Assembly (NCBI GenBank): GCA_949299455.1
Contig: CASGAN010000018.1
Coordinates: 1-48,741, forward strand
Source of the DNA: an uncultured Oscillospiraceae bacterium
GTDB taxonomy: Bacteria > Bacillota > Clostridia > Oscillospirales > Ruminococcaceae
Reading direction: 5' to 3'
DNA length: 48,741 nucleotides
The position numbers and the translations under genes were made by a program. This document shows, one piece after another, positions 1,112 to 41,919 of this stretch. The notes under the pieces were generated by a model. It saw only the letters and a list, made by a program, of their open reading frames with translations. It was not told the origin of the DNA and did no database searches. How positions within the stretch are numbered: the first letter of the stretch is position 1; each line of letters opens with the position of its first letter.

Positions 1112-2245
1112 TTAAACACTGTTTTGGGCGGCTAAATAAGCATTCAGTTTTGCAATATCGAGCGCCTTTTTAGATTCCTCTAAATGCGTGTATATTGATA
1201 GAGTAGTTTTTACGTCAGAATGCCCAAGCAGATACTGAGCGGTCAAAACGTCTACACCGGCGGTATGCAGCGTAGTGGCATAAGTATGGCGCAGATAGTG
1301 CGCGGTAAAGAATATAGATAACGGCACCCCTTGCGGATTATGTTTGTTTTGTCCTGCGGCAGCTCCGTAGTGCACATTGATTTCTACCAGATAGGACTGC
1401 CACAGCCGACGCCACGCAGTTTCGCTCATAAGCTTTCCCTGAGCAGAAGGACAGAACAGGCCGGCGCGATCCGGTAGAGTGGACAAGTAATCTGCCAGAA
1501 TGTCCGGAATCGGCACAGTGCGCATTCCTGCAGGTGTTTTTGTTGTGTCTTTGATTTCAGGCCTGCCGCCATCCACGAAAATGACGGTCTTATTTACAAT
1601 GAGTGATCTGTTTATGAGGTCAATATCCTCCCAACGCAGCGCAAGAACCTCGCCGCGCCGCAGGCCTGTATAGAGCATTATCATGGCTGCCGGTTGTGCT
1701 CGATGCGGCGTGTTTACCACCATATCAACCTCGAGGGCTGTCAGTGCCCGGCGTTTGTTTTCGGCAGCAGCCGGCGGGGAAGCGTACTGCGCAGGGTTAA
1801 AGTCACAGGCTCTATTTTTAATTGCATACGTAAATACTTGATCTGCAGTGATCCGTATCTTTTTCAATGTGCTTTTTGATAATCCCTCTTTCGAGGCATC
1901 TATGAGTACTTGCTCAATTTCTGCGGGCTGTATCATACCGATGGGGCGGGAGTAAATGGGGGACAGATGCTTAAGCATAGACCGATACATCACCATGGTA
2001 CTTTTACCGACGGTCGATTCTTTTAAATTCACCCAAACTTCTGCCCATTCACCAAAAGTGGCTGTTTTTCCTGGAATCCGTCCTTTTGCCAGTTCGGCGC
2101 GGATCTCAGCCGCTTTGGCGTCGGCCTCTTTTTGTGTTTTGCCATAGCAGTATTTATACCGCGGTTTTCCTTCGGCGTCTTTTCCTAGATAGACGCGTAC
2201 ACGTACCCGGCCTCGATCGTCTCTTGCATTCGTTTTCTTCGGCAT
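1112..2245 (-). CDS. int: Phage tyrosine-recombinase integrase
   Basis: This 377-residue protein performs site-specific recombination between attP and the tRNA-Pro attB. The N-terminal 60 residues look like the AP2-like arm-binding domain and residues 65-150 like the SAM-like core-binding domain. The catalytic set is complete: R196 in TGLRRGE, K236 region, H316 and R319 in HYLRHTY, H342 in LLGH, and nucleophile Y352 in SIYTHL. It starts at an ATG preceded by GGAGG and ends about 200 bases from the left att core, as expected for the enzyme that made this insertion. It lies downstream of the DUF4236 gene on the same strand, separated by a small hairpin. Confidence 0.96.
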   Translation of the reverse strand: MPKKTNARDDRGRVRVRVYLGKDAEGKPRYKYCYGKTQKEADAKAAEIRAELAKGRIPGKTATFGEWAEVWVNLKESTVGKSTMVMYRSMLKHLSPIYSRPIGMIQPAEIEQVLIDASKEGLSKSTLKKIRITADQVFTYAIKNRACDFNPAQYASPPAAAENKRRALTALEVDMVVNTPHRAQPAAMIMLYTGLRRGEVLALRWEDIDLINRSLIVNKTVIFVDGGRPEIKDTTKTPAGMRTVPIPDILADYLSTLPDRAGLFCPSAQGKLMSETAWRRLWQSYLVEINVHYGAAAGQNKHNPQGVPLSIFFTAHYLRHTYATTLHTAGVDVLTAQYLLGHSDVKTTLSIYTHLEESKKALDIAKLNAYLAAQNSV

Positions 2246-2292: not shown

Positions 2293-3315
2293 TTATTGTG
2301 TACAATTTTCGCAAGGTGTCAGCCCGCGCCGTAATGCTTCGGCGAGTGTACACTCGTAATAGGTTCCATTCCCACAATTGTTATCAAAATGATACCGTTT
2401 TCCGGTTTTTGTCCGATACACTTTAACGTCCTCATTCGGATCGCTCGACTCTGCGGGAGGAGTTTTGCTGGATTCCGTCGTCGGCTGTGGTGCTTTACTA
2501 GATTCTGGCTCCGTTACAACCGGCGCCTTGCTCGACTCCGTTACGGTGCTTGATTCTGTTTCGGTAGATTCCACGCTTTCTTCTTTAGATGATTCCTCTA
2601 TAACCTCAGAAGACTCTGGCGCAGAAGATTCTTCTAAGATGCCATGGTTTTCAGTGATTGCACAGCCTTCTAAGAGGATGCCTGAAAGTCTTTCCTGATA
2701 AATGCCCTTAATGGAAACTGTTTCGCCCTCTGAGGCAGTTCCTTCGAGCATCTCGCATTGTACACTGATTGTTGGATGCCCTGATTCTAATATAACTTTT
2801 CCACTGCGCACAGACTGGACGACACCTTTTATTTCCACAACGGCATTTTCGTATTTCTGATTCGTTGCGTCCCTGTCCGCCTCAAATTCCTTCACCAGTT
2901 CTTCTGCAGTTAAAGAGAATTGAGGTTCTTTATTACGTGAATCGACCGTCCAACCGGACGCAACACCGATAATATAAAAGCCTACAAGAACCGCAGCAAC
3001 GATTGCGCAAATCATAATGATTTTTTTCTTATTTGCGGGTTGTTTCGGCGGCGGAGGCGTCAGATCGGGAGAGTCCTGCGTATAAGACATATCCGGATCG
3101 GTCTGAACTCTCCTGTGCTTCGAGGAAGGCCCTCCAAACGTTTTAGAATACGACACTCCTGTACCAGGCACCCCCACAGAGGCGGTTTTCCTACCCGATG
3201 AATTTACGGAAAAGCGAGCCCCTTTACCGCCAAAACTTAACCCCATACTTTTCTTTGACAGGTTGAGGCGAACACCCGGCGCAAGCTTAAACGACTTTCG
3301 AAATCGAAACCCCAT
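2293..3315 (-). CDS. DUF4236 membrane protein with OB-fold-like domain and Cys-containing C-terminus
   Basis: The 340-residue protein is a chain of modules. Residues 1-60 match the DUF4236 pattern (MGFRFRKSFKLAPGVRLNLS, repeated Ser/Gly). A single membrane helix lies at about 97-120. Residues 135-220 look like the tRNA_anti/OB-fold domain found in clostridial cell-surface proteins. A Ser/Glu/Thr-rich linker follows, and a C-terminal segment of about 40 residues ends in a possible metal site (CENC). Its job is unknown; lying in the lysogeny arm, it may be expressed from the prophage and alter the host surface. It starts at an ATG with AGGAGTGG upstream. Confidence 0.75.
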   Translation of the reverse strand: MGFRFRKSFKLAPGVRLNLSKKSMGLSFGGKGARFSVNSSGRKTASVGVPGTGVSYSKTFGGPSSKHRRVQTDPDMSYTQDSPDLTPPPPKQPANKKKIIMICAIVAAVLVGFYIIGVASGWTVDSRNKEPQFSLTAEELVKEFEADRDATNQKYENAVVEIKGVVQSVRSGKVILESGHPTISVQCEMLEGTASEGETVSIKGIYQERLSGILLEGCAITENHGILEESSAPESSEVIEESSKEESVESTETESSTVTESSKAPVVTEPESSKAPQPTTESSKTPPAESSDPNEDVKVYRTKTGKRYHFDNNCGNGTYYECTLAEALRRGLTPCENCTQ

Positions 3316-3413
3316 ATTTCCACTCCTTTCTTATTTCATCCTCATATTACCACAAATATTTTCGCAAAGCAAACAATTTTTCGCAAAAAAGCAAGAATCA
3401 GAATGAAAAAATC

Positions 3414-3431
3414 GAACAAGTGTTCTATAAT
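3414..3431 (+). promoter_or_regulatory. LexA (SOS) box overlapping a -10 element
   Basis: GAAC-AAGT-GTTC at 3414-3425 fits the Gram-positive LexA consensus (CGAAC, four bases, GTTC); the flanking C at 3413 also fits. It directly abuts the -10 hexamer TATAAT at 3426-3431, where bound LexA would block RNA polymerase. No good -35 is visible. The downstream gene is the 34-residue ORF at 3464. Confidence 0.7.
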
Positions 3432-3463
3432 AGTGGTACAGTATAACGAAAGAGGTGGTATGT

Positions 3464-3568
3464 ATGGAATACATCATGGAATTGATAAAGGCCGCGAATA
3501 AGAGAGAACAACGGATCATCCTTGCCTTTGTATTAAAATTACTGCACAAACCACCGAAAAAAGAGTAA
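3464..3568 (+). CDS. Small LexA-controlled prophage protein (34 aa), unknown function
   Basis: ATG at 3464 is preceded by AAAGAGGTGG at a good distance. The product is a short, basic, helical peptide containing KREQRIILAFVLKLL and a Lys/Pro tail. It resembles the small leucine-rich proteins that many clostridial prophages carry beside their repressor genes; that comparison is from memory. The promoter region has a near-consensus LexA box, so it should be switched on by DNA damage. It is convergent with the XRE repressor gene and shares its terminator hairpin. A role in prophage induction is an inference. Confidence 0.65.
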   Translation: MEYIMELIKAANKREQRIILAFVLKLLHKPPKKE

Positions 3569-3574
3569 AAGAAA

Positions 3575-3601
3575 AGCTGATCGAAAGATCAGCTTTTTTT
3601 C
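3575..3601. terminator. Shared bidirectional terminator between the 34-aa gene and the repressor
   Basis: AGCTGATC-GAAA-GATCAGCT with a GAAA tetraloop is followed by seven T on the plus strand and has A residues on the other side. The repressor stop codon (3589-3591) lies inside the hairpin. Confidence 0.85.
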
Positions 3602-3963
3602 TTCCCTTCGAGCAGGTCGTTTGCAAACTGCTCAAGCACTTTCCAGCCGTTTTCGTCCAGCCGGGACAGCGCACCGATGAACCTGTGTTTAAAATCGTCG
3701 GATTCTTCGGAGAGCAGCTCGCCCATAAACGATGCGATCTCCTCATCGCGGCTCATCTCAACGAACATTTCACCCTCGCCGGTTCTGAGCCACTGCTCGT
3801 TCACGCCGAACTCGCGGCAGATTAGAGCTATAACAGTGTCAGAAGGCACTCTAAGCCCTGTCTCGTAACTTGTCACGGTGTTGGGCTTAATGCCAATCTT
3901 GTCAGCAAACTCAGCTTGTTTCAATCCGAAAGACTTTCTTATTTGTTTAATTCGCTCGTCCAA
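3589..3963 (-). CDS. XRE-family phage repressor (CI-like)
   Basis: A Cro/C1-type helix-turn-helix fills residues 3-58 (LKQAEFADKIGIKPNTVTSY is the recognition part). The remaining 65 residues are acidic and helical. TTG at 3963 is chosen as start because GGAGG lies seven bases upstream; an ATG further upstream (4041) has no ribosome binding site and would run through the promoter. At 124 residues there is no S24/LexA-type peptidase domain, so RecA-driven self-cleavage is not expected. It would bind the palindromes at 4000-4014 and 4040-4054 and hold the early operon off. Transcription is leftward from the promoter at 3985-4013. Confidence 0.88.
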   Translation of the reverse strand: MDERIKQIRKSFGLKQAEFADKIGIKPNTVTSYETGLRVPSDTVIALICREFGVNEQWLRTGEGEMFVEMSRDEEIASFMGELLSEESDDFKHRFIGALSRLDENGWKVLEQFANDLLEGKKKS

Positions 3964-3984: not shown

Positions 3985-4013
3985 ATTATAATAAAAAACA
4001 TTTACACAGTCAA
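3985..4013 (-). promoter_or_regulatory. Leftward repressor promoter
   Basis: On the minus strand TTGACT (4013-4008), a 17-base spacer and TATAAT (3990-3985) make a near-perfect sigma-A promoter 22 bases from the repressor TTG. The -35 is inside the imperfect operator at 4000-4014, so the repressor may control its own gene. Confidence 0.85.
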
Positions 4014-4032: not shown

Positions 4033-4061
4033 TTGACACATTTACTTAGTAAATATATAAT
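4033..4061 (+). promoter_or_regulatory. Rightward early promoter
   Basis: TTGACA (4033-4038), a 17-base spacer and TATAAT (4056-4061) form a full consensus sigma-A promoter for the early operon starting at 4093. The spacer contains the operator palindrome. Confidence 0.9.
4040..4054. promoter_or_regulatory. Repressor operator O1 (perfect palindrome)
   Basis: ATTTACT-T-AGTAAAT is a perfect 15-bp dyad between the -35 and -10 of the early promoter, the classic place for a phage repressor. Binding by the XRE protein at 3589-3963 is inferred from position. Confidence 0.75.
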
Positions 4062-33459: not shown

Positions 33460-34365
33460 ATGAGCAAAATCATTTGTATTGACCCGGGACACGGCGGCGT
33501 TGACGTTGGCGCAGTGCGCGGCAGCCGTTACGAAAAAAGCGATAATCTGCGCATGGCAAAGGCAGTCAAGGCCCTGCTTGAACCACAGGGTATCAAAGTA
33601 GTGCTGACGCGCGACGGTGACACCAATCCGTCATTGTCTAGCCGCTGCGATATTGCGAACAATGCAAAAGCAGATTATTTTCTGTCCATTCATCGGAATT
33701 CTTTTGGAAACCAGACGGCGACCGGTGCAGAAATCTGGGTACATCACGCGGCACAGCAAAGCACGGTTGACAAGGCGCAGCGAATCCTTGATGAGATTCT
33801 TTCCGTTTGCGGCAAGGATCGCGGTGTGAAAAAAGGATACACCGGAAACCCGAATGCTGATTATGCGATCAACCGCGAATCGAACATGGCATCGGCGCTG
33901 CTTGAGCTGCTGTTTATCTCGTCCGATTATGACAACAGCTTATATGACCGGTATTTTGACAAGCTCGCAGAAGCGATTGCAAAAGGGTTGTGTGCGGCGG
34001 TTGGTGTGGAATATGGTGCGCAGAAACCGGACGGCGGCACATACATTGTAAAATCCGGTGACAGCTTTTGGAAGATTGCAGCAGAGCAGCTCGGTGACGG
34101 CAATCGTTATAAGGAGCTCGCCGCCTTTAACGGCATGACCGAAAACAGTGTGATTCATCCGGGCGATGTATTAAAGCTGCCAGGCGGCGGTTCGGCTTCG
34201 ACACCGGGTTACAAAACATATACTGTGAAGCCAAACGACAGCTTTTGGAAAATTGCGGCCGAACAACTCGGTGATGGCAATCGTTATAAGGAGCTCGCCG
34301 CCTTTAACGGCATGACCGCAAGTAGTGTGATCCACCCCGGAGACATCCTGAAAATCCCGCAGTAA
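33460..34365 (+). CDS. N-acetylmuramoyl-L-alanine amidase (endolysin) with two LysM repeats
   Basis: Residues 3-180 form an Amidase_3 domain. Zinc ligands H11 (DPGHGG), E25 (YEKSDN) and H78 (SIHRN) and the catalytic Glu in LLELLFISS (about 147) are in place. The enzyme cleaves the bond between MurNAc and L-Ala. Two LysM repeats (about 190-236 and 248-297) bind the wall; their DNA is almost duplicated. The repeats match those of the upstream lysozyme in prophage A although the catalytic domain differs. Precedes the holin. Confidence 0.95.
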   Translation: MSKIICIDPGHGGVDVGAVRGSRYEKSDNLRMAKAVKALLEPQGIKVVLTRDGDTNPSLSSRCDIANNAKADYFLSIHRNSFGNQTATGAEIWVHHAAQQSTVDKAQRILDEILSVCGKDRGVKKGYTGNPNADYAINRESNMASALLELLFISSDYDNSLYDRYFDKLAEAIAKGLCAAVGVEYGAQKPDGGTYIVKSGDSFWKIAAEQLGDGNRYKELAAFNGMTENSVIHPGDVLKLPGGGSASTPGYKTYTVKPNDSFWKIAAEQLGDGNRYKELAAFNGMTASSVIHPGDILKIPQ

Positions 34366-41202: not shown

Positions 41203-41280
41203 CGGACAATTCTTACAAAAGCAATGACCCAAATCAATGCGGTTTGCATATAATATAAAATGGGGAAGGAGGAACTGTGC

Positions 41281-41919
41281 ATGCAGTATACAAAATTAAA
41301 GCACACGCGAAAAAAACAGTGGATTTTTCATTTGATTCGATTTCTGCTGATTGTTGTACTGATTTTTGCGACCACCGAACTGGTGTTCGGGGAAGCAGTA
41401 AAACGCACACTTTCCTATCAGGGAAAACGTGCCGCGACACTGTCAATGAGCAATGCGATTCTTCCGTTTTTAGAAAATCCGGATTATACATACGAAAAGC
41501 TTTCAAATGTCACTTACGACAATAACGGACGGATTCTTTCAATTTCACTGAATACCTCACGGCTGAACCAAATGAAAACTTTGATGGAGCAGAAGGTGAC
41601 AAAAGCGCTAACCGGTGCAGATGCCGCAGTCGAAATCCCGCTGGGTACACTGCTTGGCATGACGCTTTTTTCGCAGCGCGGACCAAGTGTCAAGCTGCAC
41701 ACCGCTGTATACGGCGTTGTACACGCGGAATATCAAAGTGCATTGAAAAGTGCCGGCATTAATCAGACAGAACACACCATTTCCATTGTGCTGACAGCTA
41801 CAATCGAAACGTTTGTTCCGTTTTTCTCTGCATCATTTCCGATTACGCAGGAATTTTTAATTGCGCAAACCGTTTTGGTTGGTGAAGTTCCGGATCAAAT
41901 GCTGTCGCTTTCTGCATAA
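41281..41919 (+). CDS. yunB: Sporulation protein YunB
   Basis: The 212-residue protein has an N-terminal membrane anchor (about residues 15-35, IFHLIRFLLIVVLIFATTEL) and the YunB outline: MSNAILPFLENPDYTYEKL and a C-terminal domain with VLTATIETFVPFFSA. YunB is made in the mother cell of sporulating Bacillus. ATG 41281 follows AAGGAGG. A GCATATAATA stretch near 41247 may be its -10. It is divergent from pyrB. Confidence 0.88.
   Translation: MQYTKLKHTRKKQWIFHLIRFLLIVVLIFATTELVFGEAVKRTLSYQGKRAATLSMSNAILPFLENPDYTYEKLSNVTYDNNGRILSISLNTSRLNQMKTLMEQKVTKALTGADAAVEIPLGTLLGMTLFSQRGPSVKLHTAVYGVVHAEYQSALKSAGINQTEHTISIVLTATIETFVPFFSASFPITQEFLIAQTVLVGEVPDQMLSLSA

Follow-up and report, generated by a model that had tools for sequence, protein, structure and literature searches.

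A putative LexA-controlled antirepressor resembling the terminal hairpin of non-self-cleaving repressors in clostridial prophages

A 48,741-nucleotide stretch of DNA from an uncultured Oscillospiraceae bacterium (assembly GCA_949299455.1, contig CASGAN010000018.1, positions 1 to 48,741; here called the window) carries a prophage region with a short XRE repressor, and the question that it raises is how DNA damage could induce such a prophage. A first-pass annotation had described this repressor as having 124 residues and lacking an S24 domain, and the Pfam scan bore this out, with a match to HTH_3 and none to S24. Because they lack an S24 domain, prophages with short repressors of this kind would not be inducible by repressor self-cleavage. 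Judged from sequence and predicted structures, the likely answer is that a 34-codon gene facing the repressor encodes a LexA-controlled antirepressor that mimics the oligomerization hairpin of the repressor, as SinI does that of SinR. The features on which this argument turns are listed below.

3403..3431, plus strand: sigma-70-type promoter of the small gene, with ATGAAA (3403-3408), a 17-nt spacer and TATAAT (3426-3431); promoter scan, 10 of 12 matches
3413..3425, plus strand: LexA-type operator CGAACAAGTGTTC, within the promoter spacer and touching the -10 element; read from the sequence, with the 12-mer at 3414-3425
3451..3458, plus strand: ribosome-binding-site-like AGAGGTGG; read from the sequence
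3464..3568, plus strand: small open reading frame (ORF) of 34 amino acids (aa), ATG at 3464, stop ending at 3568; proposed antirepressor
3572..3597, listed for the minus strand: 11-bp terminator-like stem, overlapping the last codons of the repressor; from the fold
3963..3589, minus strand: XRE repressor, 124 aa, TTG start; Pfam HTH_3 at residues 5-59

The box, the promoter scan and the ORF coordinates agreed with the first-pass description of a palindrome abutting a TATAAT and followed by a ribosome-binding site and a 34-codon ORF, for which the choice of start codon was scored. CGAACAAGTGTTC takes up most of the 17-nt spacer of the small-gene promoter, and its core in the window is GAAC-AAGT-GTTC. 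The small ORF and the repressor gene are convergent, tail to tail, with stop codons 20 nt apart in the window, and they do share one hairpin, as had been noticed: the 11-bp stem at 3572-3597 separates the stop of the small ORF from the end of the repressor and has, by inspection, a T run on the plus strand.

Related repressors were compared in two sets. The first was drawn from IMG/VR, from 16 of the 35 phage records with a match, and from searches of 396 family genomes (69 matching) and 391 class genomes (24 matching), the genome matches being fetched in part, including 30 loci and 40 further stretches; with a floor of 50 bits, and with one entry kept per locus and per protein sequence, 139 hidden Markov model (HMM) hits came down to 120 unique repressors, 91 of which, the window's included, were short and full length. 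This set includes the loci that prompted the pattern. The second set comprised 160 loci obtained with a narrower alignment (the top 80 from each of two groups, of 413 and 383 relatives) and yielded 141 new repressors, of which 118 were short and had flank (117 5' flanks); identical repressors were dropped, and some members are closely related to first-set members. Both sets together held 211 short repressors, which fell into 122 clusters at 60% identity by single linkage (largest cluster, 57).

Exact GAAC-N4-GTTC occurs twice in the window against 0.82 expected, and 20 times in its own genome against 26 for the backward control, so the single window box is not significant alone. Of 15 genome palindromes examined among the 20, 14 lie inside open frames of at least 100 codons, and the window's box lies outside such a frame. 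The significance of the box comes from its relatives. Conservation of the ORF and the box in related prophages had been set beforehand as a refuting test, and it was found: the palindrome stands within 300 nt 3' of the repressor stop in 15 of 91 first-set loci versus 1 of 91 within 300 nt 5', and in 27 of 118 second-set loci versus 0 of 117 5' flanks. A further first-set locus (L064, a genus relative, box at +306) brings the boxed first-set loci to 16. In the first-set 3' flanks GAAC-N4-GTTC was the commonest of the 256 tetramer-N4-complement palindromes (next, TTTT with 11), and the same arms with other spacers of 0-10 gave counts of 0-2; in the second set it again ranked first of 256 (next, 11), with at most 1 for other spacers of 0-12. 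No box was found 3' of 29 first-set repressors outside the short, full-length class, 3' of 29 S24-domain XRE repressors from the same genome family (1 of 29 in the 5' flank; best small-protein hit, E 0.32), or 3' of 30 other XRE genes. The S24 controls came from 40 PF00717 loci, 39 of which gave an S24 ORF, the 29 with an XRE-type helix-turn-helix (HTH) being used and the other 11 excluded; the XRE controls were phrog_3 loci, mainly HTH matches, and some other loci (30 rows with enough flank, 3 too short). Over both sets the exact box was present in 35 of 104 loci with a small ORF versus 9 of 107 without (Fisher p 6.6e-6), and in Terrisporobacter phage TPDSL_ph2 (L029) the same 12-mer, GAACAAGTGTTC, abuts a TATAAT and accompanies a small ORF of the family; spontaneous release of this phage by Terrisporobacter petrolearius DSL is described in PMC11253131. 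Chance or an annotation artefact was rejected as the source of the box and small ORF by their conservation in both sets. The separate SOS switch on a non-self-cleaving repressor that had been suggested is the proposal that fits best, as far as sequence can tell.

The Gram-positive LexA operator is CGAACRNRYGTTYG, a pattern that is fitted by a purine at position 5 and a pyrimidine at position 8. By sequence, the window box agrees with it, as does the core of the 37 exact boxes that adjoin a small ORF (counting that of the window), in which a purine occupies position 5 in 34 and a pyrimidine position 8 in 37; these two positions were not selected for in the exact-box search, and TATAAT abuts 9 of the 37 boxes. 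With a position weight matrix (PWM), an operator score of at least 10 was reached at 63 of the 106 small ORFs, where 0.6 would be expected, with few scores between the high and low groups; because the PWM was trained on exact boxes from the same loci, only its non-exact hits test it. A small ORF together with an operator of PWM score at least 8 was present in 63 of the 211 short-repressor loci and 28 of the 122 clusters, and a small ORF in 47 of the 122 clusters. The host has a lexA gene that scores over the curated cut-off, and its promoter spacer holds AAACACATGTTC at the -35 TTGACA (with the last base common to both) and before TATAAT. For the host family, 30 lexA loci were tried, 5 of them without a usable ORF, and in a few of the remaining 25 the start codon is apparently misplaced. 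From these sequences the phage boxes appear nearer to perfect GAAC-arm symmetry than most host-family lexA boxes. In excerpts of PMC4234289 the box of B. subtilis is GAACN4GTTC, and the one at the C. difficile genes lexA and recA is GAAC....GTTT. A table in the same source also lists a GAAC....GTTC box 67 nt before a putative cI repressor in one C. difficile strain. Two further loci carried boxes of their own: at L011 1-16, a contig end, a second LexA-like gene, which encodes 203 aa and may belong to a mobile element, is directly preceded by AGAACAAAAAGTTCT with a spacer of 5, and near position 1500 of L051 a gene that by eye resembles a RecA-type ATPase has its box, AAACATTTGTTC, arranged like that of the host lexA promoter, at TTGACA and ahead of TATACT.

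Between box and repressor, 15 of the 16 boxed first-set loci hold a short ORF with a pattern close to YKxxIIxLLxxxxxxxLxxIYxFIxxxL. A small-protein HMM seeded from 13 of these 16 loci hit two of the other three (L142 and L147) and not L085, where the ORF is present and goes unrecognized. In the second set 65 hits of the HMM reached E<1e-4, and 59 of these were convergent and within 400 nt of the repressor stop. In all, 106 small ORFs were tabulated, 89 of them 30-40 codons long. These ORFs are under purifying selection, with a pooled ratio of nonsynonymous to synonymous change (pN/pS) of 0.30 and pS greater than pN in 76 of 76 pairs at 55-99% identity, the pairs sharing members. The window's 34-aa protein has many charged residues and was predicted by AlphaFold2 as a two-helix hairpin (residues 2-10 and 13-26; mean predicted local distance difference test [pLDDT] 91.5, predicted template modelling score [pTM] 0.54). 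Among 52 small proteins scanned, Pfam, NCBIfam and PHROGs gave no convincing match and Pfam SinI none at E<=0.05; DUF7889 (E 0.0016, 2 of 52 members) and single PHROGs (E>=0.01) were taken as chance. Against PDB sequences, the best matches of the small-protein profile were designed helical repeat proteins (E 0.001). In public records the small ORF is unannotated in L025 and L030, which are Butyrivibrio phages Closwp03 and Idris, and in L029, whose record gives instead a hypothetical gene that overlaps it in part and lies on the strand of the repressor; in L022 (Blautia phage Montmirail) it is annotated as hypothetical. Upstream of the small gene and on its strand, L022 (+513 from the repressor stop) and the IMG/VR contig L013 (+490) encode similar 65-aa HTH proteins, which could be a further regulator.

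The likeness of the small protein to the repressor's own terminal hairpin is an addition to the first-pass annotation. The small-protein profile aligned colinearly with that hairpin over 31 columns with a score of 20.95 (E 2.3e-5 for a single comparison); 100 column-shuffled controls had a mean of 6.9 and a maximum of 13.4, the reversed profile scored 10.3 and the HTH 7.95. After its HTH, the AlphaFold2 model of the repressor (mean pLDDT 91.5, pTM 0.61) has only helices (72-85, 91-100 and 104-123), and the hairpins compared were 2-10/13-26 of the small protein and 91-100/104-123 of the repressor. Besides the window's own proteins, the input for the structure predictions comprised 51 of the 57 small proteins chosen and 60 of the 98 repressors chosen. 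By model and profile comparison, the gene product is a predicted two-helix protein whose pattern follows the repressor C-terminus, as SinI-like working would have it. In a Foldseek search with the repressor model, the top-ranked solved structures were 9iaq (E 9.8e-4; chain 9iaq_B) and 9sf2 (1.1e-3; 9sf2_A), and SinR-SinI (1b0n_A) ranked 15 (E 2.6e-3; root-mean-square deviation [rmsd] 11.8). A 273-aa ORF at L148 (G692:C1) repeats the repressor-type sequence, twice clearly and a third time weakly, and a further 168-aa copy adjoins it.

Sequence comparison also indicates that the small protein varies with the C-terminus of its repressor and not with the HTH. In a partial Mantel test the correlation was 0.30 for the C-terminus (reached by 0 of 300 permutations) and 0.03 for the HTH (89 of 300). 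Where the small proteins were similar (>=0.75) and the HTHs dissimilar (<=0.65), all nine pairs had C-termini 0.80-1.00 identical, and where the HTHs were similar (>=0.8) and the small proteins dissimilar (<=0.5), all six pairs had C-termini at or below 0.53; some loci recur across these pairs, and identity values for 35-residue proteins vary with the alignment. The clearest natural experiment is L282 versus L292, in which DNA identity was 0.87 over repressor codons 1-66, 0.44 over the C-terminal codons, 0.38 in the intergenic stretch and 0.44 in the small ORF, and in which it rose again to 0.87 and 0.92 across 120 nt ahead of the small ORF before falling to 0.58 farther out; that conserved stretch holds the ribosome site and two LexA-type boxes, each with one mismatch. 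L312 and L355 present a weaker form (HTH 0.78, C-terminus 0.53, small ORF 0.59, then 0.58, 0.76 and 0.82). Among 11 pairs with like HTHs and like DNA past the small ORF, both C-terminus and small ORF were alike in 8, both unlike in 2 and between in 1, and none of these 11 was mixed, with one part alike and the other unlike by the set limits.

The surroundings of the gene pair are those of a prophage, with an integrase, a DUF4236 gene, the small gene, the repressor and an early cluster that encodes an excisionase-like HTH_17 protein, an exonuclease, a DNA polymerase and a primase-helicase. In the gap between the repressor and the early genes, two promoters (4013-3985 and 4033-4061) diverge.

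1112-2245, minus strand: integrase
2293-3315, minus strand: DUF4236 gene
3985..4013, minus strand: repressor promoter TTGACT-17-TATAAT; promoter scan, 11 of 12
4033..4061, plus strand: divergent early promoter TTGACA-17-TATAAT; promoter scan, 12 of 12; presumed target of the repressor, from its position

In the lysogen, host LexA would occupy the operator inside the small-gene promoter and keep the small gene silent, and the 124-aa repressor would keep the early promoter shut. Upon DNA damage, active RecA would bring about cleavage of LexA, and the 34-aa two-helix protein would be made. As a free-standing version of the repressor's terminal alpha-hairpin, this protein would pair with that hairpin in a heterodimer, whereupon repressor dimers or tetramers would fall apart and leave the DNA, the early genes would start, and the prophage would be induced. 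Elsewhere in the window, two lysin-type ORFs with common LysM-like repeats lie at 86-781, at the left edge, and at 33460-34365, and a perfect 14-mer, CGAACTGGTGTTCG, probably there by chance, lies at 41376-41389 inside a coding-type ORF (41260-41919) toward the right side.

Two routes from the small gene to the repressor had been put forward, and of these the protein route fits better than transcription opposing the repressor mRNA. With convergent genes and 20 nt between the stop codons in the window, an SOS-driven transcript running into the repressor gene could lower its mRNA by antisense pairing or collision. However, a terminator-like stem stands between the genes, the ORF is conserved as a protein (pN/pS 0.30), its profile matches the repressor C-terminus, and in L282/L292 it is the coding part that differs along with the C-terminus, the ribosome site and operators being alike. 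The protein route is favored over antisense because of the stem, the purifying selection and the co-variation, and action of the transcript itself is improbable. A modest chance is left that the small protein serves as a co-repressor or brake after damage, or as an antirepressor directed chiefly against other prophages that share the cell. Small co-repressor proteins are described for phages P1 (Lxc) and TP901-1 (MOR), the Gifsy antirepressors act on one another's repressors according to excerpts of PMC3121763, and the small proteins show no similarity preference for their own repressor; against this, they co-vary with the neighboring repressor's C-terminus, and SinI, a known mimic of such design, takes SinR off DNA in the account excerpted from PMC3163267.

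It is unlikely that the palindrome serves not LexA but the phage's own repressor or some other regulator that binds dyads. For such a regulator speak the host-family lexA promoters, which more often carry AAAC-N4-GTTT (8 of 25), and the lack of GAAC-N4-GTTC enrichment across the host genome, but the core fits the Gram-positive LexA pattern, the host lexA has AAACACATGTTC in its own promoter spacer, and L069 and L095, with HTHs only 0.46 identical, carry the boxes GAACAGATGTTC and GAACATCTATTC. Since boxes are present beside repressors with quite different HTHs, they appear independent of repressor DNA specificity, and an operator of the phage's own repressor is disfavored because the motif does not follow the HTH. 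TisB is an SOS-induced toxic or membrane-active peptide, and short predicted helices under an SOS-type promoter would suit a peptide of comparable manner that is unrelated to the repressor; this is very improbable for a predicted hairpin rich in charged residues, colinear with and co-varying with the repressor C-terminus, and encoded beside repressors without S24. The count of boxes in the window is within chance, yet a random palindrome ahead of a random short ORF is scarcely credible when ORF and operator recur in 28 of 122 repressor clusters and neither control flanks nor control repressors show an excess of boxes.

Several observations weigh against a LexA-controlled hairpin mimic, a reading that draws throughout on sequence and predicted structures. 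The host lexA box lies on the -35 side of its spacer and the window box on the -10 side; among the palindromes of the 25 host-family lexA promoters AAAC-N4-GTTT comes first (8 of 25), with exact GAAC-N4-GTTC outside the six commonest. As an operator of PWM score at least 10 is absent from 43 of the 106 small ORFs (e.g., L025, L030, L133 and L220), LexA is not the only input of the family, and these ORFs may respond to another signal. Beside 107 of the 211 short repressors the HMM finds no small ORF, and the box is nonetheless present at 9 of these 107. The hhalign probability for the small-protein profile against the repressor C-terminus was 76%, and a fold search with the small-protein model gave one PDB match, a designed protein at E 3.5, and nothing useful. 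Long Foldseek alignments of the repressor model to 9iaq_B, 9sf2_A and 1b0n_A had rmsd values of 6.8-12, so that its structure matches reflect mainly a shared HTH and helical tail. The small proteins are no closer to their own repressor's C-terminus than to those of others (z 0.11, s.e. 0.11), for which reason we would speak of mimicry of fold and pattern and not of recent duplication. In four pairs, C-termini at least 0.8 identical accompany small proteins of only 0.36-0.49 identity. Moreover, several of the co-varying pairs have a 3' flank in common over some hundreds of nucleotides, and because the C-terminus is encoded at the end of the gene closer to the small ORF, some of the co-variation could be due to linkage.

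With these points weighed, we lean, though not strongly, toward a broader form of the antirepressor reading, in which clostridial temperate phages share an exchangeable immunity cassette consisting of the repressor's terminal alpha-hairpin and a free decoy of 30-40 residues. This cassette would be joinable to different DNA-binding domains and input promoters, with a LexA input in about three-fifths of members making non-self-cleaving repressors SOS-responsive and the rest wired to other signals.

LexA-controlled phage antirepressors are known: excerpts of PMC3121763 name GfoA, GfhA and GftA of the Salmonella Gifsy phages, Tum of coliphage 186 and AntC of N15. As in those phages, LexA would here directly control the gene for a small protein that inactivates an uncleaved repressor, a likeness seen in the sequence as an operator over the small-gene promoter (in the window and in 63 of 106 members) and a repressor without S24. 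Unlike the antirepressors of Gifsy, 186 and N15 as there described, the clostridial gene is convergent with the repressor, is 30-40 codons long in 89 of 106 cases and resembles the repressor's terminal hairpin; the Gifsy antirepressors are placed outside the immunity region, whereas the clostridial gene lies directly 3' of the repressor. In excerpts of PMC3163267, SinI has 57 aa, is under Spo0A and governs biofilm genes, and SinR has 111 aa with a C-terminal two-helix hook. The pair described here is similar in that a small two-helix protein with the pattern of the repressor's C-terminal hook adjoins an XRE repressor of similar size, and dissimilar in the 34 aa, the LexA-type operator and the lack of a Pfam SinI match. 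By PDB entry titles, AimX with the phi106 repressor (9iaq, 9sf2) is likewise a small antirepressor acting on a phage repressor; aimX is described as set by the AimR-AimP peptide system (phi3T), and it is by this description, not by AimX sequence, that it is set apart from a gene with a LexA-type operator. SOS-independent small antirepressors are described from Vibrio and Aeromonas phages, and excerpts of PMC10432266 present TF-smORF modules and Qtip, small ORFs (one unannotated) that inactivate the lysis repressor; unlike the gene described here, those are under a transcription factor of the phage and do not depend on SOS. A hairpin mimic under LexA, in convergent position and with clostridial spread, did not turn up in topical searches of one open-access library. 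LexA-controlled antirepressors as such are known, and the mimic design, convergent position and clostridial spread look new within those searches.

The analysis offers a concrete induction route for a sizeable group of short-repressor prophages (63 of 211 loci, 28 of 122 clusters), and it delineates a small-protein family without a convincing match in three libraries, the genes of which can escape annotation. The presence of the same gene pair across many phages of gut bacteria suggests a widespread route by which DNA damage could wake prophages with a non-self-cleaving repressor. If this is true, the 34-residue product would be a very small antirepressor of natural origin, and one through which the induction of prophages in gut bacteria could be addressed.
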